Shown here: piece after piece, positions 28,838-45,329 of the stretch | Position numbering within the stretch: the first letter of the stretch is position 1 | Layout of the letters: each line of letters starts with the position of its first letter | Assembly: GCA_030824075.1 (NCBI GenBank) | Contig: JAVBYJ010000026.1 | Span: 1 to 64,000, forward strand | Origin: Geothrix sp. | GTDB lineage: Bacteria; Acidobacteriota; Holophagae; Holophagales; Holophagaceae | Length of the DNA stretch: 64,000 nt | Direction of reading: 5' to 3' | Made by a program: the position numbers and the translations under genes | The notes under the pieces: generated by a model | Seen by the model: the letters and a program-made list of their open reading frames with translations, nothing else | Told to the model about the DNA's origin: nothing | The model's database searches: none

Positions 28838-30190
28838 CTACCCGCCACAGCCTTCGATGAACCTCCGGCTTTGCGCCTCGGCCTGGGCCTCGAAGAGGGT
28901 TGCGCCCGCCACCAAGGAAAGGTTCGCTTCCTGGGCCCAGCGCGCGAAGGCCGTGTCCTCCTTGTAGATCCACTCCACAGCCCAACGGGCGCTGGCCTGG
29001 GCGGCCAGCAGCTGATCGGGGAACGGGGCCGGATCGTCCACAGCCATACCCAGGCTGGTGGCCTGGACGACGCCCACGGGCGCAAAGGCGGCCACGGAGG
29101 CCGCGGTCACCGGCGACCGGCGGGAGACCTGGAGCACTCTTCGCCCCCCGGCTTCCATAACGGCGCGGCTGGTTCGCGCCACTCCGCCCTCTCCAAGCAG
29201 CAGCACCGGCCCGGGCGCCAGATGCGACAACGATTGTTCAAAAGCCTCGGCATCGGTATTGGTGCCCTGCCAGGGGTCCGCAGGCGATCGCCGCCAGAGG
29301 GTGTTCAGGGGACCCTTCAATCCGAGTGCTTCCGGAAGCGAGAGCTTCAGCGGCGCCGTGATGCTGAGTCCCAGGAGGTCGAGGGTGTCCAGAGCCTCCA
29401 CTGCCTCTGCGGCTGCATCGCAGACCAGGGGCAGGTAGAGCAGGTCCTTGAAGGCCCCCTGAAAGCGGGGATTGTGGAAGGCCGGACCCCGAGAATGCAG
29501 CACCGGGTCCCCGATGACGCCGCAGAGACCGTGACCCGGATGGAGCTTCGCGCTGCGCCAGGCACGCAGGGTCGAGAGCGGCAGTTGTCCCGGCGCGGCG
29601 GGCGGCCCATCGTCCGGCGCGGCGAAGGTGAACGAGCCCCCCCAGGCGGATTGCATGGCCCGGCTGGCGAGTCCCTTGGGGCCCATCAGGAAAGCCGACA
29701 GGGCGAGGCCGTGGTCCCGGGCCCAGGCCAGCGGGGCACGGAGCCGCCCGTTGTCACCCAAGCGTCCAGCCCACCCCACCCACTTGAAGGCTTCTCCCTC
29801 CGGCAGGTCGCGCAGGCGCGCCTCCAAATCAAAGATTCCGGGCGCCACATGGATGGATCGCAGGAGTCGAACATGGGTGCGGGCCACCTGGACCTCGGAT
29901 GGGATGGACAGGTCCCACTCCAGATCCATCCAGGCGGGTTTGCCTTTGAGGGCGCGGATCAGGTGCGCGAGGCGTCCCGCCTCGTCCTCATCGGGCCACC
30001 GTCCGCCCTCCGAGACCCGGCGGCAGGTCACCAGACAACGCCGCTTCAGGGCATCCACCAGGGCCTCGGGATCCGCCTCCGGAAACAGGTCGAGGCGAAG
30101 CTCAGGAAGGGCATCCGCCCCCAGCCGCCTCGCGCAAGCCAGGGCCTCCTCCCACTCAGGGTGGGTCAGCGTCACAAGATGGAAGGGCAT
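28838..30190 (-). CDS. Bifunctional 3-dehydroquinate dehydratase (type I) / shikimate dehydrogenase
   Basis: 450 residues. The N-terminal half is type I dehydroquinase: LRLDLFPEAD, CRRVSEGGRW, an active-site-like His in SIHVAPGIFDL, Lys in EAFKWVGWAG, FLMGPKGLASR and GSFTFAAPDDGPPAAPGQ. The C-terminal half is shikimate dehydrogenase: GVIGDPVLHSRGPAFHN, LSITAPLK (catalytic Lys), GTNTDAEAF (catalytic Asp), the NADP region LLLGEGGVARTSRA and AGATLFEAQAEAQ. The usual second Ser of the shikimate site (HS.SP) is Gly here. Start ATG 30190, or GTG 30199. Confidence 0.9.
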   Translation of the reverse strand: MPFHLVTLTHPEWEEALACARRLGADALPELRLDLFPEADPEALVDALKRRCLVTCRRVSEGGRWPDEDEAGRLAHLIRALKGKPAWMDLEWDLSIPSEVQVARTHVRLLRSIHVAPGIFDLEARLRDLPEGEAFKWVGWAGRLGDNGRLRAPLAWARDHGLALSAFLMGPKGLASRAMQSAWGGSFTFAAPDDGPPAAPGQLPLSTLRAWRSAKLHPGHGLCGVIGDPVLHSRGPAFHNPRFQGAFKDLLYLPLVCDAAAEAVEALDTLDLLGLSITAPLKLSLPEALGLKGPLNTLWRRSPADPWQGTNTDAEAFEQSLSHLAPGPVLLLGEGGVARTSRAVMEAGGRRVLQVSRRSPVTAASVAAFAPVGVVQATSLGMAVDDPAPFPDQLLAAQASARWAVEWIYKEDTAFARWAQEANLSLVAGATLFEAQAEAQSRRFIEGCGG

Positions 30191-30416
30191 GGCGATCACA
30201 GGGCTTATCCGGGTTCCGCCATCCTACCCGCTTCGACCAAGGGTCATCGGGAAACCCATGGGATTATTCGCCTTCGGGGATCCAGGAGCTGACGCCCTGT
30301 GATCAACCTCACACCCGGCTGGCTGGCTCCTCTATTCACGACCTATTCGTCTGCTACCATCTTTTCCATCACAGGGTCAGTGGTCAGACCGCAAGTCCCT
30401 GAGAACAGGAGCATCA

Positions 30417-31818: not shown

Positions 31819-33585
31819 CTACCAGAGCCCCAGCACCTTCCACCAGAGGCCGCCAAGGCCCACCCAGATGACGATGTTCACGAGGCTGATGAGCAGCCCC
31901 ATGCGCCACCAGGTGCCGACCTCCACATACCCCGTGCCGAAGAGCACCGGTGCCGGGCCCGTCCCGTAGTGGGTCATGCCCGCGAAGAGGTTGCTGAAGA
32001 AGGCAAGCACCAGGGCCGCCAGCACCGGCGGCGCGCCGGCCACGATGGACACGCCAAGAAAGGCTGCGTACATCGAGGCCACGTGGGCCGTGTTGCTGGC
32101 GAAGAAATAATGGCTGTAGAAATAGACCAGTGCCAGCACCAGGAAGGCCGCGATCCAGCCCTTGCCTGACACCATGCCACCCATGGTCTTGCTGAACCAG
32201 GGCACCATCCCCAGCTTATTGAGGAAGCTGGCCATCATCACCAGGGCCGCGAACCAGACCAGGGTGTCCCAGGCGCCGGTCTCGGCCTTGATGTCGTCCC
32301 AGTTCAGGACGCCCGTGAGCAGCAGCACACCGAGCCCGGCCAGGGCTGAGGTGGTTGGATTCAGGTCGCCCAGCTGCTTGGCAAAGATCCAGAGCACCAG
32401 CAGCATCACGAAGACGCCGAGCATGGCCCATTCCTGCCGCTTGATGGGACCGAGGTCGCGCAGGTGGCCCTTCGCCATCTCCACAGCTTCCGGCGTTTCC
32501 GTGATCTCCGGCCGGTGCAGCCGGTAGATGATGAACGGCACCACGATCAGCGCCACCAGCCCCGGCACCAGGGCCGCAAGGGCCCAGCCGCCCCAAGTGA
32601 TGGTCACCTTTAGATCCCCCGCCAGCTTCTGAGCCAGCGGGTTGGCCGCCATGGCCGTGAGGAACATGGCGCTGGTGATGCAGTTCACCTGGTAGGCCGT
32701 GAGCGTGAGAAACGAACCCATCTTCCGGGAACTCGCGTCGCCTGGGTTGCTTCCGTAGGCGCGGGCCAGCGAGGCCATGATGGGCATGACGATGCCGCCA
32801 CCCCGGGCCGTGTTGCTGGGAATGGCGGGCGCAAGCACCAGGTCCGTGGCGGCCAGACCATAGCTGAGGCCCAGGGTACGCTTCCCAAGCAGCGCCATGA
32901 AGGTGTAGGCGATGCGTGCGCCGAGCCCGGTCTTGATGAAACCCCTGGAGATGAAAAAGGCCAGGACGATGAGCCAGATCACCACGTCCGAGAACCCGCT
33001 CATGGAATCCGCGATGGAAAGCGTCCCGCTGAGGGCCGTGACCGCGATGCCGATCATCGCCACCGCGCCCATGGGCAAGGCCTTGAGGATGATGCCCGCG
33101 ATGGTGGTGACGAAGATGGCGAAGAGGTGCAGCCCCTTCTGCCAGTCAGCCTTTCGCTTGGCTTCGGCATCCACCTTGGCCTTGGCGTCGGCCTCAGCCT
33201 TCAGCTTGGCGTCAGCCGCTGCCTTGGCTTTCGCCTCCGCCTCGACGATCGCCTTGGTTTCCGCCTCGGCCTTCGCCTTAGCCTCGGCCTGGGCTTTGGT
33301 CAGGGGCTTCGCTGGCGCAGGAGCCGGAACCGATGCCACTGCGGCGATGGGGGCGGGGGGCTTGATCTCCGGCTTCGGCGGCGCGGGCTTGGCGGTGGGC
33401 GCGGGTTTGGCCGCAACGGGCTGCCCCGCGAAGAGCTTGGCATCCGGTACCGGAACCACTTTCGGCAACCCGAAGTACAACACCAGACCGAGTGCGAGCG
33501 TCGCGAGTGCTGGGCCGAGCCTCGCACCCTGCCAGCCCGACAGACCTCCGGCCGCGACCGTTCCAGAAACGGGTTCATGGCTCAT
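31819..33585 (-). CDS. DASS-family divalent anion:Na+ symporter with a TolA-like insert
   Basis: 588 residues. Most of the protein is a canonical dicarboxylate/2-oxoglutarate/citrate symporter: LHLFAIFVTTIAGIILKALPMGAVA, APAIPSNTARGGGIVMPI (SNT substrate/Na motif), NPLAQKL and YFFASNTAHVASM. Between the first helix (about 22-40) and the second (about 152-170) lies a 100-residue insertion: a Pro/Ala/Lys stretch (48-95), then AEAKAKAEAETKA repeats to about 146, similar to the TolA central helix. ATG 33585 has GGAGG upstream; the longer frame lacks support. Confidence 0.9.
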   Translation of the reverse strand: MSHEPVSGTVAAGGLSGWQGARLGPALATLALGLVLYFGLPKVVPVPDAKLFAGQPVAAKPAPTAKPAPPKPEIKPPAPIAAVASVPAPAPAKPLTKAQAEAKAKAEAETKAIVEAEAKAKAAADAKLKAEADAKAKVDAEAKRKADWQKGLHLFAIFVTTIAGIILKALPMGAVAMIGIAVTALSGTLSIADSMSGFSDVVIWLIVLAFFISRGFIKTGLGARIAYTFMALLGKRTLGLSYGLAATDLVLAPAIPSNTARGGGIVMPIMASLARAYGSNPGDASSRKMGSFLTLTAYQVNCITSAMFLTAMAANPLAQKLAGDLKVTITWGGWALAALVPGLVALIVVPFIIYRLHRPEITETPEAVEMAKGHLRDLGPIKRQEWAMLGVFVMLLVLWIFAKQLGDLNPTTSALAGLGVLLLTGVLNWDDIKAETGAWDTLVWFAALVMMASFLNKLGMVPWFSKTMGGMVSGKGWIAAFLVLALVYFYSHYFFASNTAHVASMYAAFLGVSIVAGAPPVLAALVLAFFSNLFAGMTHYGTGPAPVLFGTGYVEVGTWWRMGLLISLVNIVIWVGLGGLWWKVLGLW

Positions 33586-33648
33586 GGGGAGCCTCCATGG
33601 TTGAGATTTGGATGGGATTTCGGTGCGTAGTCTACCCATCAGTCGGAT

Positions 33649-33672
33649 ATTGTGTAGGGCATTCTTACAAAT
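33649..33672. promoter_or_regulatory. Operator-like dyad between DASS and dehydrogenase genes
   Basis: ATTGTGTA (33649-33656) and TTACAAAT (33665-33672) form an imperfect palindrome in an AT-richer stretch between the divergent promoters. Nearby, TTTTGACC and TTTGACGG form a short direct repeat (33698-33715). No regulator gene is adjacent. Confidence 0.35.
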
Positions 33673-33735
33673 GTTTTGAGGGCTCATTCATCGTCGTTTT
33701 GACCATGTTTGACGGTTTCTTCAGAGGAGGCTTCC

Positions 33736-37046: not shown

Positions 37047-38981
37047 TCAGAGGGCTTCGAGGATCTCGCGGGCCAGGTCAGTGAGCGAGGGGTCCCGGGC
37101 CCCCATGACAAGGACCAGATCCCCTGCCTTCGCCTCGGCCGCCAGCCGTTCCACCAGCCAGGTCCGCGATGGCGCATACTCTGCGGACGCACCCCTCGCG
37201 GCGATGTCCGCGGCCACCTCGGCGCTGCTGATATCCCGCAAGGCGGCCCCCCCGGCGTAGAACACATCCAGGAACCAGAGGCTGTCTCGGGACGCCAATT
37301 CCGCGACGAAGGCCTCCACGAAATCAGCGCGGAGGAATTTAAGAGGTCCGAACCCGTGTGGCTGGAAGATCGCCAGAACGCGCCCTCCAAGCGCTTCCAC
37401 CCGAAGGTGGGCAGCCTGGATCGAGGCGGCGACCTTGGCGGGGTTATGGCCGAAGTCGTCCACCACGGTGACGCCACGCCGGGTACCCAGCACCTGGAAT
37501 CGCCGGGCCACCCCCTGGAAGGCGGCCAGAGGCTCGACCATGGCCGTCAGCGGCACGCCCAGAGCGCCGCAGGCTGCGATCGCCGCCAGGGCGTTCTCCG
37601 CGTTGTGGCGCCCTGATACGGGCAAACGAAAGGAGACACCCTGAACGCTGAAGGTGGATCCCTCGGGATCAAGCCGCAGGTTCTCCCCGCGGAAATTGGC
37701 CCCGGCCCCCCATCCGAAGCCGAGGCCCCCCTCGGCGAATTCGCGCAGATTCGCCGCCTCGCCCACCACAGCGGCTTCCCTGACCTGGACTCGGAAGGCG
37801 CGAAACAGCTCCGCCACGGCATCCATCTCTTTGTGGTCCCGCTGCAGATTGAGGATCACACCCACCGCGGCGTGGTAGCGCACCACCGAGCCGTCGCTTT
37901 CATCGGCCTCGATGACCAGCAGGTCCGAGGTTCCCGCCCACGCATTTCCCCAGCGACCCTGCCGCTGAAGCGCCACCAGATCTCCCCCCGTGATGACGGA
38001 CGGATCCCGGCCTGCCCCCCGCAGGATCTCGAAGACCATGGCCACCGTGGTGGACTTGCCGCTGGTTCCGGTCACCGCGACCGTGCGGTATCTTGCCACC
38101 AGATGCGCCAATAGTTCGGAGCGGTGCAGCACCGGCACACCCAGACGTCGCGCCGCCGCCATGTCAGGGACCTCATCCTCGACCGCCGTGGACACCACCA
38201 GCGCTGCGCAATCGCCTTCCAACCCCGTACCGTCCTGGGGATGGATCACCACGCCCAGGGCCTCGAGGTGAGCGCGTGCCTCGGGCCGCTGGCCCCGATC
38301 GAAACTGCGATCGCTGCCGCTGGCGTGGCCGCCTTTCAAAACCACAAACTGGGCCAGGGCGCTCATGCCGCTGCCCGCCACACCGGCGAAGTGCAGCCGC
38401 CCCAGGCCCAGGCCGTCGACCGGCAGGCCTTCGGCGATCAACACGGGATCACCTTCTGCCACGCGGTCGAAGAGGTCCACCACCGCCGCATTGGCGAGGC
38501 GCACGCAGCCGTGGGAAACGGGCCTGCCCAGCAGCCCCTCCTGGTTGGTGCCATGGAGGTAGATGAAGCGTTCCAGGGAATCCCGCCCCGGCCCACGGTT
38601 CAGGCCCTCCTCCAGGCCCTCCAGGGTGAGGACCCGGGTCAGGATCAGGTCTTCGTCCCGGGACTCGCCCCGCCACACGTCGCCCGTGGCCACGCGGCTG
38701 CGGAAGACCGCGCCCGGCTCCGCGCCCGCGCCGACGCGCTCGTGGATCCGGTGCCAGCCTGTGGGCGTGCGGTACGAACCCTCCTCGCAACCCAGGCCGT
38801 TCTTCGCCGTGGAGATGGACGCTTCGAAGACCAGGTGGTCTCGCTCCAGCAGGCCGAGGCGCTGCCGGGCCGAGTCCACCACCAGGATTCTGGAGCTTCG
38901 ATCCAGAGAAGGCGCACCTTCCCGCGCGAGGGTGGCGAGGATGAGGGCGCGGTAGCGGGCGGCGTGGACTGGATCAAGCAT
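37047..38981 (-). CDS. L,D-transpeptidase (YkuD) domain fused to a MurC/Mpl-type Mur ligase
   Basis: 644 residues in one uninterrupted frame. Residues about 30-183 are a YkuD domain with the full catalytic signature: HGTN (143-146), SHGCVRL (156-162, nucleophile Cys159) and the upstream TPTGWHRI. From about 195 a Mur ligase begins (LHFAGVAGSGMSALAQ, GSDRSFDRG); the P-loop is GTSGKST (305-311), followed by IEADESDGS (357-365), SGRHNAENALAAIAA and VDDFGHNPAKVAAS in the C-terminal domain. There is no signal peptide or N-terminal membrane helix, so the YkuD part looks cytoplasmic. Whether the ligase is MurC-like (L-Ala) or Mpl-like (tripeptide) cannot be told by sight. Confidence 0.9.
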   Translation of the reverse strand: MLDPVHAARYRALILATLAREGAPSLDRSSRILVVDSARQRLGLLERDHLVFEASISTAKNGLGCEEGSYRTPTGWHRIHERVGAGAEPGAVFRSRVATGDVWRGESRDEDLILTRVLTLEGLEEGLNRGPGRDSLERFIYLHGTNQEGLLGRPVSHGCVRLANAAVVDLFDRVAEGDPVLIAEGLPVDGLGLGRLHFAGVAGSGMSALAQFVVLKGGHASGSDRSFDRGQRPEARAHLEALGVVIHPQDGTGLEGDCAALVVSTAVEDEVPDMAAARRLGVPVLHRSELLAHLVARYRTVAVTGTSGKSTTVAMVFEILRGAGRDPSVITGGDLVALQRQGRWGNAWAGTSDLLVIEADESDGSVVRYHAAVGVILNLQRDHKEMDAVAELFRAFRVQVREAAVVGEAANLREFAEGGLGFGWGAGANFRGENLRLDPEGSTFSVQGVSFRLPVSGRHNAENALAAIAACGALGVPLTAMVEPLAAFQGVARRFQVLGTRRGVTVVDDFGHNPAKVAASIQAAHLRVEALGGRVLAIFQPHGFGPLKFLRADFVEAFVAELASRDSLWFLDVFYAGGAALRDISSAEVAADIAARGASAEYAPSRTWLVERLAAEAKAGDLVLVMGARDPSLTDLAREILEAL

Positions 38982-39157: not shown

Positions 39158-41104
39158 TCAGGCGCCCACGATCCGCCCCGCCAGGGCGCTGGCGGTGACG
39201 GTCGCCGGGCTGGCCAGCCACATCTGGCCCGGGCCGCTGCGGCCAGGAAAGTTGCGATTGATGGCGCTGATGGTGACCTGATCAGGGTGGGTGGATACGC
39301 CCGGGCCCGCATTGATGCAGGCCCCGCAAGAACTGCCCAGCACCACGGCCCCCACCGCCTCGAAGGCCGAGATCCAGCCCTGCGCTTCCGCGTAGCGCCG
39401 AACGTCCTCGCTGCCGCACTGCACGAAGAACTGCACGCCCTCAGGCACCCGGCGTCCCTCCAGAACCGCCGCTGCCGCCACCTCGAAGGCCCGGCGCAGA
39501 TCCTCGCGCTTGCCGCCGGTGCAGCTGCCCAGATAGGCGATGTCGATGGGCACCGCCTCGTCCAGGTCCGCCAGGGCCAGGCCGTTCCCAGGATCGCCGG
39601 GACGCGCCAGCATAGGGCCCAGCGCCGCACAGTCCACCTCCAGGGTATGGGAGTAGGTTGCGCCCTCGTCGCCGCACATCCAGGGTTCCAGGACCAGGTC
39701 CACGCCGCGTCGATCCTTCACGAAGCGGACGGTCTCCTGATCCGGTGCGATGAGCCCGGTGAAGCCGCCGATTTCCGCAGCCATGTTGGTGAGGGTGGCA
39801 CGCTCGTCGGTATCCAGATCCAGCAACCCCTCGCCCTGGTACTCAATCACATGCCCCAGGGCACCGCCCTCCCGGATCAGGGGCTGGGCCAGGAGGCTCA
39901 GCACTAGATCCTTGGCGGAGACGCCGAATCGCAGGCGGCCATTCAAGCGGACCCGCAGGGTAGGTGGCACCGTGACACGGACATCCCCGGTCACCCAGGC
40001 ACAGGCGATGTCCGTGGTACCCACTCCGAAAGCCAGACACCCCAGGGCCCCTGCGTGGGGGGTATGCGAATCCGTACCCACCACCACCTGGCCTGGGCAA
40101 GCGTAGCGCTCGGCCATGATCGCGTGGCAGATGCCCTCGCTTCCGGCGCCATCCGGAAGCTCACCATGGAGCCGGATCCCGTGCTTTGAACAAAAACCCT
40201 CCTGCGCGGGCTTCAGCCGTTCGGCCACCGTCAGCAGGCCCATGGTCCGATGCTCGGCCTTCATGCTGTGGTGCAGAAACGTGAGGTGATCCCGAAAGGC
40301 CAGGATGTGTTCCGGATCACGCAGGACGGCCTCTGGTCCCAGGGCCTTCTCCAGAAAGCTCGCGGCCATGGGCGTCACGTACTCGTGGCTGAAGCGCCAG
40401 TCGGCCATCACGAAGAGACCATCGCCGGGCTTCACCACGGGAAGGCCCACCTCCCCCGCCGTCGCCTCCACCACCGTGTGCCGCGCCAGCAGCTTCTCCG
40501 CGTAGGTCATGGGACGTGGGGCGTGCGCCGGCAGCGGCGGTACCACCTCGCCCGTCAGGCGGGCGGCGTTGTAGGCGAAGAGCCCTCCACGGCGCACGAT
40601 CTCGGCGGTGACGGGGTCCAGCCCGGCGGTGAATTCCGCCAGTGAGATGGCCTCGCCCCGCCGGATCCGTGGAATCAAGCCGAAATCCGTGCTGGTGAGG
40701 AGCCCGAGATTCTGCGCGTTCTGACGGTAAATGCGCTCAAAGCTCTCCGCGATCACCAGGCGGATGCCCGCACACAGTTCGGCGAAGGGACTGGCCTCGC
40801 GGCTGCTGCCCTTGCCCCGGCGCTTGCCTGCCACGCTGACGGCGAAACCACCGGCGCGGACCGCACCTTCCTTCACCGGAAAGGTCCCGCCGCACTTCAG
40901 CCCCAAATAGGGGAAGTCACCCAGTTTCTCGTCGAAGTGGTAGCAGATGAAGGCGGGGGTGATCTCGTCGGTGCTGATCTGATCCCGCAGGGGTCCGGTT
41001 TCGGAAGGTTCCAGATCTTCGCCCGCGAATTGGCGGAGGATCCGTGCCGGATCCTCCGTGAGAAAGAGAATTCGGCCATCGAAACGAATCGAGTCGGACA
41101 ACAT
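39158..41104 (-). CDS. Aconitase/isopropylmalate isomerase family, swivel domain first
   Basis: 648 residues. The small swivel (LeuD-like) domain is N-terminal (about 40-165: STDEITPAF, YLGLKCGGTFPVKEGAVRAGG, RRGKGSSREASPFAEL), followed by the large catalytic part. That part has LPDGAGSEGICHAIMAE, VVGTDSHTPHAGALG, the cluster Cys motifs YLGSCTGGKREDL and SSCGACINAGPG, and NRNFPGRSG near the end. The order differs from AcnA/LeuC+LeuD. Substrate unknown: aconitase, homoaconitase or isopropylmalate isomerase. ATG 41104 follows TACCCT by exactly six bases. Confidence 0.88.
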   Translation of the reverse strand: MLSDSIRFDGRILFLTEDPARILRQFAGEDLEPSETGPLRDQISTDEITPAFICYHFDEKLGDFPYLGLKCGGTFPVKEGAVRAGGFAVSVAGKRRGKGSSREASPFAELCAGIRLVIAESFERIYRQNAQNLGLLTSTDFGLIPRIRRGEAISLAEFTAGLDPVTAEIVRRGGLFAYNAARLTGEVVPPLPAHAPRPMTYAEKLLARHTVVEATAGEVGLPVVKPGDGLFVMADWRFSHEYVTPMAASFLEKALGPEAVLRDPEHILAFRDHLTFLHHSMKAEHRTMGLLTVAERLKPAQEGFCSKHGIRLHGELPDGAGSEGICHAIMAERYACPGQVVVGTDSHTPHAGALGCLAFGVGTTDIACAWVTGDVRVTVPPTLRVRLNGRLRFGVSAKDLVLSLLAQPLIREGGALGHVIEYQGEGLLDLDTDERATLTNMAAEIGGFTGLIAPDQETVRFVKDRRGVDLVLEPWMCGDEGATYSHTLEVDCAALGPMLARPGDPGNGLALADLDEAVPIDIAYLGSCTGGKREDLRRAFEVAAAAVLEGRRVPEGVQFFVQCGSEDVRRYAEAQGWISAFEAVGAVVLGSSCGACINAGPGVSTHPDQVTISAINRNFPGRSGPGQMWLASPATVTASALAGRIVGA

Positions 41105-41116
41105 GCCTCCAGGGTA
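41102..41116 (-). promoter_or_regulatory. Leaderless-type promoter of the aconitase-family gene
   Basis: Minus strand TACCCT (41111-41116), six bases GGAGGC, ATG at 41104. The GGAGG is one base from the ATG, too close to act as a ribosome-binding site. Confidence 0.55.
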
Positions 41117-41136
41117 CCTGGCTTTACCCCCTACGC

Positions 41137-41164
41137 ACGAAGGCCCCCAACCGGGGGCCTTCGT
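41137..41164. terminator. Hairpin between DUF1292 gene and aconitase-family gene
   Basis: Perfect 12-bp stem (41137-41148 and 41153-41164) around AACC. No T run on the minus strand, so termination is not certain. Confidence 0.6.
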
Positions 41165-41184
41165 CATCTCGTCGGAAAGGCGAT

Positions 41185-44528: not shown

Positions 44529-45329
44529 CTACAGATAGGTCCGGACCCCGACGAAGGCCTTCCGGTAGTAGCGATCCGAGATCTCGTCCTGGCGGATGCC
44601 CTGCCCGGGCCGGGGGGCATGGATAAAGGCCCCCTGCCCCACATACACCCCCACATGGCTCACCCGGCCCCCGCCTCCGGTGGCGAAGAAGAGAAGGTCT
44701 CCCGCCTGGGCTTCGTCCAGATCTACGAGGCTGCCTGCCTCGAACTGGGCCTGGGAGGAGCGTGGCAACCTCAGCCCGTTCAACTGGTACACGGCCCCCG
44801 TGAAACCGCTGCAATCGAAGCCGCGCTCCGTGGTGCCACCAAAAAGGTAGGGCACGCCCAGGTAGTCCCGGGCGGTATGGACCAGGCTGGCCCGCAGGCC
44901 ACCTTCGTCCGTGGGCCGCCGCTGATTCCGGCCCGAGGCGCCCGGGGCTGAACCATCCGGCGCCACCACCCAAAAGGCGTCGATCACCCCGGCGGCCTTC
45001 AGAGCCTCACCCCTGGCCCGGGCCTTCTCCTTGGTGGCGAAATCCCCGAAGCGCACCCGATAGAGACCGTCGCCAGAGGCGTAGTAGGCCGCTTCCAGCC
45101 CCTGGGCATGCAGCGATTCCGAAAACCGCGCCGCGTTTTCAACCTTCCCGAACGCTCCCGCCTGCAACGTGTAGCCCAGGCGCGGAAGGACCTTGGCGAC
45201 CGAAGGCCGGTTGGCTCGCCGCTCCGGGACCGGTCGCGGCGCACGGGAGCAGGCGGGGATCAACAACAGAAGGGCCACCACCGCTGGGGGAGCCAGCCTC
45301 ACACGCGGCATGACCTCGAAGAAGAACAT
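44529..45329 (-). CDS. SPOR-NlpC/P60 lipoprotein, peptidoglycan endopeptidase
   Basis: 266 residues. A lipoprotein-like signal (ALLLLIPAC) leads to a SPOR domain (about 50-120: YTLQAGAFGKVENAARFSES, LYRVRFGDFATKEKA) that binds denuded glycan. The C-terminal NlpC/P60 domain has the catalytic Cys in RGFDCSGFTGAVYQ and His in GRVSHVGVYVG. It should cleave peptide stems at septal or outgrowth sites. TAGGAT lies exactly six bases before ATG 45329. Confidence 0.92.
   Translation of the reverse strand: MFFFEVMPRVRLAPPAVVALLLLIPACSRAPRPVPERRANRPSVAKVLPRLGYTLQAGAFGKVENAARFSESLHAQGLEAAYYASGDGLYRVRFGDFATKEKARARGEALKAAGVIDAFWVVAPDGSAPGASGRNQRRPTDEGGLRASLVHTARDYLGVPYLFGGTTERGFDCSGFTGAVYQLNGLRLPRSSQAQFEAGSLVDLDEAQAGDLLFFATGGGGRVSHVGVYVGQGAFIHAPRPGQGIRQDEISDRYYRKAFVGVRTYL

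Follow-up and report, generated by a model that had tools for sequence, protein, structure and literature searches.

The window, i.e. the whole stretch of 64,000 nucleotides analysed, belongs to a draft genome of Geothrix sp. (94.6% complete, 85 contigs) and harbors an unbroken gene of 644 codons, starting with ATG and free of internal stops, whose product joins a YkuD domain to a Mur ligase, as the preliminary description had proposed (Table 1). All Pfam domains are found above their cut-offs, with YkuD (PF03734) reaching 75 bits versus a required 23.4, followed by Mur_ligase (residues 196-299), Mur_ligase_M (303-471) and Mur_ligase_C (493-629). The full YkuD signature with Cys159, previously read from this sequence, was recovered with both HGTN and SHGC conserved in 18 aligned fused homologues, in which the catalytic residues of both halves, including the P-loop GTSGKS, are invariant. 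The AlphaFold2 model of the whole chain, for which the E. coli MurC row was left out of the alignment, shows a mean pLDDT of 95.7 and a pTM of 0.93, and the block 181-190 in the linker region has a pLDDT of 88. The neighbours of the gene in the window code for aconitase-family and MazG proteins, unrelated to it. The aconitase-family gene (39158-41167, reverse strand), whose product carries the swivel (Aconitase_C) domain ahead of the catalytic domain, lies upstream of the fused gene, an arrangement also seen, with one gene in between, in the complete genome of the same genus (G033).

Table 1. Features of the fused gene and its product (window coordinates).
Feature	Position	Strand	Basis
Fused protein, ElsL-like YkuD and GARD/QPHG-clade Mur ligase, 644 aa	37047..38981	-	ORF, Pfam, AlphaFold2
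YkuD (PF03734) catalytic domain, residues 31-182; predicted cytoplasmic ElsL-type L,D-carboxypeptidase	38436..38891	-	Pfam, ElsL profile
YkuD active site, HGTN (143-146) ... SHGC (156-159), nucleophile Cys159	38505..38555	-	Alignment, 18/18 fused proteins
Interdomain linker, residues 183-194	38400..38435	-	Alignment; length differs among genomes
Three-domain Mur ligase, complete, residues 195-630	37092..38399	-	Pfam; fold match to MurC 1p3d
P-loop GTSGKST, residues 305-311; canonical MurC, G[TSA]HGKT	38049..38069	-	Alignment
DDFGHNP, residues 508-514; canonical MurC, DDYGHHP	37440..37460	-	Alignment
QPHGFGP, residues 540-546, in place of MurC QPHRYSR	37344..37364	-	Alignment, HiMurC mapping
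GARDPSL, residues 627-633, C-terminal signature of the clade; MurC, GAGD/GAGN/GAGS	37083..37103	-	Alignment

Since the genome is a draft in 85 contigs, an artefact had to be considered, be it a sequencing frameshift or an assembly error, or else a hidden signal by which the protein is exported. The frameshift, named earlier as the finding that would undo the fusion, is ruled out because full-length, single-frame copies recur in 30 of the 37 genomes of the genus (source genome counted) and in no fewer than five further genera of the Holophagaceae, with 64-84% identity. An 82% identical copy is found in Geothrix sp. BP11, seven full-length copies come from the other genera, and five more genomes of the genus carry a copy that is split, has gaps or is located at a contig end. 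Purifying selection acts on each half, with dN/dS values of, for example, 0.18 and 0.13 between the two closest copies. With respect to export, the conserved sequence opens with M-x-DPV right at the start codon, and the N-terminal hydropathy maximum is 0.7-1.6 in the fused proteins versus 2.6-2.9 in signal-peptide proteins; by these criteria no signal peptide is present, which bears out the original reading of the chain as leaderless and argues against a hidden one. An artefact of any of these kinds thus has a negligible probability, and what is encoded is most likely, judging from sequence, a cytoplasmic protein of the Holophagaceae, a family from soils and sediments to which Geothrix belongs, in which YkuD and Mur ligase are joined. 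A search for this domain pair across the Acidobacteriota, suggested at the outset, yielded copies of 64-68% identity in the other Holophagaceae genera and none beyond the family among the matches listed (396 genomes of the phylum, best three candidates per genome); hence, a fusion widespread across the phylum was rejected.

YkuD domains are transpeptidases as a rule. The best YkuD-specific NCBIfam profile for the YkuD half is the ElsL profile NF040925, which matches over the whole domain with 125 bits (the model cut-off of 270 is not reached), while E. coli LdtA, LdtB and LdtE obtain 22-31 bits with the same profile, and the Ldt profiles reach no more than background level in the family of fused proteins. 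At the profile level the YkuD half resembles ElsL, and not the secreted L,D-transpeptidases of the LdtA/B/E type, from which the fused protein differs in having neither a leader nor an Ldt profile match. For ElsL of Acinetobacter baumannii, a YkuD protein without a leader, experiments have shown that it acts as an L,D-carboxypeptidase in the cytoplasm; it occurs where LdcA is missing (PMC8649774). The fused protein shares with it the leaderless YkuD domain with an intact HGT...SHGC, and a host without S66 LdcA, but differs in that its YkuD domain makes up only ca. 185 of 644 residues, joined to a ligase, and in its score far under the NF040925 cut-off. As proteins of more than 200 residues were discarded in the published search for ElsL orthologs (PMC8649774), YkuD fusions could not appear there. 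The preliminary description knew of no described case, which stands for the fusion, for which we also found none in a literature search beyond whose reach most subscription papers lay, but not for a cytoplasmic YkuD carboxypeptidase, given ElsL (PMC8649774). Both YkuD carboxypeptidases of the cytoplasm and tripeptide ligases are already known separately. For peptidoglycan recycling in Geothrix or the Holophagaceae, our literature search returned nothing relevant. From its profile match and intact motif, the YkuD half most likely trims recycled cell-wall peptides as an L,D-carboxypeptidase.

Concerning the ligase half, the best full-length profile is TIGR01082 (MurC), which scores 290 bits where 335 are required, whereas TIGR01081 (Mpl) yields 115 bits against 388.7. 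The ligase part of the AlphaFold2 model is closest to MurC (1p3d, TM 0.88, 2.3 Å) and matches the Mpl structure 3hn7 more weakly (TM 0.66). The Mpl motif (S/T)AFFDKRSK (PMC3060825) is absent from the fused protein, where EADESDGSVVRYHAAVG stands at that place. The N-terminal UDP-MurNAc-binding fold and the ATP site follow MurC, these sites being mostly common to both, but the amino acid pocket does not: the H. influenzae MurC residues Tyr346, His348, His376, Arg377 and Arg380 correspond to F510, H512, H542, G543 and P546, so that both arginines that contact L-Ala, Arg377 and Arg380 (PMC3060825), are lost to Gly543 and Pro546.

A phylogenetic tree groups 49 sequences, including the fused ligases, as a monophyletic clade (support 1.0) whose sister group is formed by the 53 canonical MurC sequences, with Mpl placed separately. 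Its signatures are GT[SA]GK[ST], DD[FY][AG]HNP, QPHG and GARD, versus G[TSA]HGKT, DDYGHHP, QPHR[YF][ST]R and GAG[DNS] in MurC, with single-signature deviations in three Elusimicrobiota (QPHA) and in two further members (L101 and L102, at QPHG and GARD); otherwise, the acceptor loop is kept as QPHGF/Y. A contig scan revealed relatives in Bacteroidota, Elusimicrobiota, Fibrobacterota, Krumholzibacteriota, Alphaproteobacteria, Riflebacteria, Rokubacteria and Planctomycetota. At some MurC loci (e.g. L043, L044) long ORFs seem to be extended in frame at the N-terminus; these stretches look wrong-frame and were disregarded. By its motifs and tree position the ligase half is a member of a separate multi-phylum clade, neither MurC nor Mpl. 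It differs from its sister clade in the L-Ala-binding arginines, the HGKT P-loop and the GAG[DNS] signature, and from Mpl in motif, clade, profile score and fold distance, while sharing with the latter the three-domain Mur ligase fold, the predicted reaction and a partner L,D-carboxypeptidase in a recycling pathway. A true Mpl was rejected on the TIGR01081 score and tree position. Hence, of the earlier label "MurC/Mpl-like", the completeness, the MurC-like fold and the GTSGKST P-loop stand, and the assignment to either family does not. The clade is widespread and previously undescribed, with no description found in the same literature search, most subscription papers again lying beyond it.

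Among 33 clade-carrying genomes tested, true Mpl was found in none, as expected if the clade takes its place, and 16 carry an S66 enzyme somewhere in the genome. Canonical MurC was not detected in three clade-carrying Elusimicrobiota (G424, G427, G437) and several rumen Alphaproteobacteria, which suggests that at least some members may ligate L-Ala, or that the clade may not be uniform in the substrates it accepts. In these three Elusimicrobiota the QPHA member (L076, L079 and L090) is the only MurC-like ligase beside those of MurD/E/F type, and from this context may act there in place of MurC.

The gene neighbourhood of the non-fused clade members is informative as well. A YkuD gene overlaps the ligase start in Krumholzibacteriia (L072), Chitinispirillum (L082) and Fibrobacteres (L087), whereas in two rumen Alphaproteobacteria (L089, L093) the ligase end is abutted or overlapped by a gene for S66 LdcA, and in a Parvularculaceae member (L095) such a gene is divergent and adjoining. 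Within the Holophagaceae, UBA1801 (L094) has a ligase without YkuD followed by LdcA with a 4-base ATGA overlap. AmpG adjoins the ligase in L107, and dapB overlaps its start in L079. With the same profiles, neither YkuD nor LdcA was found near canonical MurC (0 of 47 loci), and the probability of chance adjacency with lineages collapsed is at most 2e-6, a rough binomial estimate with assumed gene densities. S66 LdcA is unrelated to YkuD in fold and catalytic residues, and has the reaction predicted for the YkuD half, so the exchange of one for the other beside the same ligase gives strong support to a model in which peptides are trimmed and then ligated. We regard this partner exchange as the strongest single argument that the YkuD half acts as a carboxypeptidase whose product the ligase uses. 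With regard to the partner genes themselves, the YkuD genes of Fibrobacteres and Chitinispirillum show Cys for the usual Arg of SHGC-V-R (SHGCVC/SHGCIC), and that of Krumholzibacteriia has SGGC where SHGC is usual. The two rumen Alphaproteobacteria (G436, G440) have genomes of 1.2-1.3 Mb with the clade ligase and LdcA and almost no other Mur ligases detected; they are possible scavengers of peptidoglycan peptides, or their genomes are incomplete.

In the source genome, the fused gene is the only YkuD gene found, no S66 LdcA was found, and Mpl gave no match above cut-off. The check for separate ldcA and mpl genes, proposed beforehand, thus came out in favour of the original proposal, both being missing also from the complete congeneric genome G033. 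AmpG (427 bits versus a cut-off of 350) and a GH3 match of NagZ type are present. Canonical MurC is encoded elsewhere (550 bits versus a cut-off of 335), by which the fused ligase as the sole MurC of this genome was rejected.

Taken together, we assign a probability of about 0.74 to the fused protein being an enzyme with two activities that serves peptidoglycan recycling in the cytoplasm, predicted to combine a YkuD L,D-carboxypeptidase with a tripeptide ligase. Muropeptides from the wall would enter the cytoplasm via AmpG, and the YkuD half (Cys159) would remove the terminal D-Ala from the stem tetrapeptide, as ElsL does. The ligase half, which most likely re-attaches recycled peptides to the cell-wall building block, would then join the resulting tripeptide to UDP-MurNAc at the expense of ATP, a reaction like that of E. 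coli Mpl but carried out by a different branch of Mur ligases. Tripeptides remain able to accept D-Ala-D-Ala from MurF, and coupled steps would let tripeptides alone re-enter precursor synthesis. What each half catalyses, on which substrate, and whether joining them brings a benefit are inferred from sequence and genome context. The one-protein recycling device originally put forward is thereby supported by the coupling to YkuD or LdcA in other lineages and by the ElsL profile, its biochemistry being predicted.

Several observations count against recycling: LdcA is also carried by 3 of 11 tested Holophagaceae genomes of other genera, no Amidase_2 (AmpD-type) match, for the step that would release the peptide from the sugar, was obtained in the source genome, most clade members have no adjoining L,D-carboxypeptidase, the ElsL and MurC profile scores stay under their cut-offs, and some lineages carry the clade with no canonical MurC detected. 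Moreover, in two genomes of another Holophagaceae genus (L060, L061) the fusion lies directly 3' of murD, within a mur cluster together with mraY or murF, respectively, a position that would suit a biosynthetic role too. This last point favours an interpretation of the ligase half as a second, conditional UDP-MurNAc:L-alanine ligase, i.e. a diverged MurC, with the YkuD half only trimming or regulating; so do the MurC fold and profile as nearest matches, and the Elusimicrobiota in which a clade member is the sole MurC-like ligase. However, the latter have the different QPHA loop, while in the fused protein both L-Ala-binding arginines are gone from a loop otherwise kept as QPHGF/Y, a canonical MurC is at hand in the same genome, and the coupling to two unrelated L,D-carboxypeptidases would be left unexplained, so we consider a second MurC unlikely.

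Less probable still is that the YkuD half is a transpeptidase which, in peptides or nucleotide precursors of the cytoplasm, puts a different D-amino acid in place of the fourth residue. Such exchange, the usual activity of the domain and compatible with the intact SHGC motif, had been offered alongside trimming in the preliminary description; trimming is supported by the ElsL profile and the LdcA swap, whereas for exchange the profile is of the wrong type (not LdtA/B/E), the enzyme standing in for YkuD in other lineages, S66 LdcA, belongs to a hydrolase family, and a product that is still a tetrapeptide would block MurF, which has been described upon LdcA loss (PMC13046382). An even smaller chance is left for a pair acting on a peptide or acceptor other than the murein stem tripeptide, e.g. 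a modified peptide or a dipeptide: the clade is uncharacterised, and its GARD signature and acceptor loop fit neither MurC nor Mpl, but the UDP-MurNAc-binding fold and the ATP site are MurC-like, and the links to LdcA, AmpG and dapB all indicate murein.

Returning to trimming followed by ligation, a recent study concludes that in bacteria with neither LdcA nor Mpl stem peptides are probably degraded to amino acids (PMC13046382). In such bacteria the recycling loop could be closed by the candidate ligase clade, which has members in Bacteroidota, Fibrobacterota, Elusimicrobiota, Alphaproteobacteria and Acidobacteriota, among others. We find it rather probable that, among the UDP-MurNAc peptide ligases, the ligase half stands for a third clade that has gone unrecognised and is present in at least eight phyla. 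This clade would recycle stem peptides in bacteria presumed to lack the step for want of Mpl, and would couple repeatedly, in an operon or by fusion, to any L,D-carboxypeptidase that is available, giving in the Holophagaceae a single trim-and-ligate enzyme. The fusion assigns an L,D-carboxypeptidase and a ligase to one pathway without a prior mutant, and with two active sites on one chain their coupling is directly measurable. The clade also suggests that many "MurC" annotations made by similarity may be other enzymes.

Further genes of the window, all on the reverse strand, deserve mention. A second fusion, of AroD-AroE type, joins type I 3-dehydroquinase and the shikimate dehydrogenase N-terminal domain in one protein (28838-30199), a sodium:sulfate/dicarboxylate symporter (31819-33687) carries a long Ala/Lys/Glu-rich insertion near its N-terminus (ca. 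residues 85-180), and a SPOR and NlpC/P60 protein (44529-45329) is a likely periplasmic peptidoglycan hydrolase.
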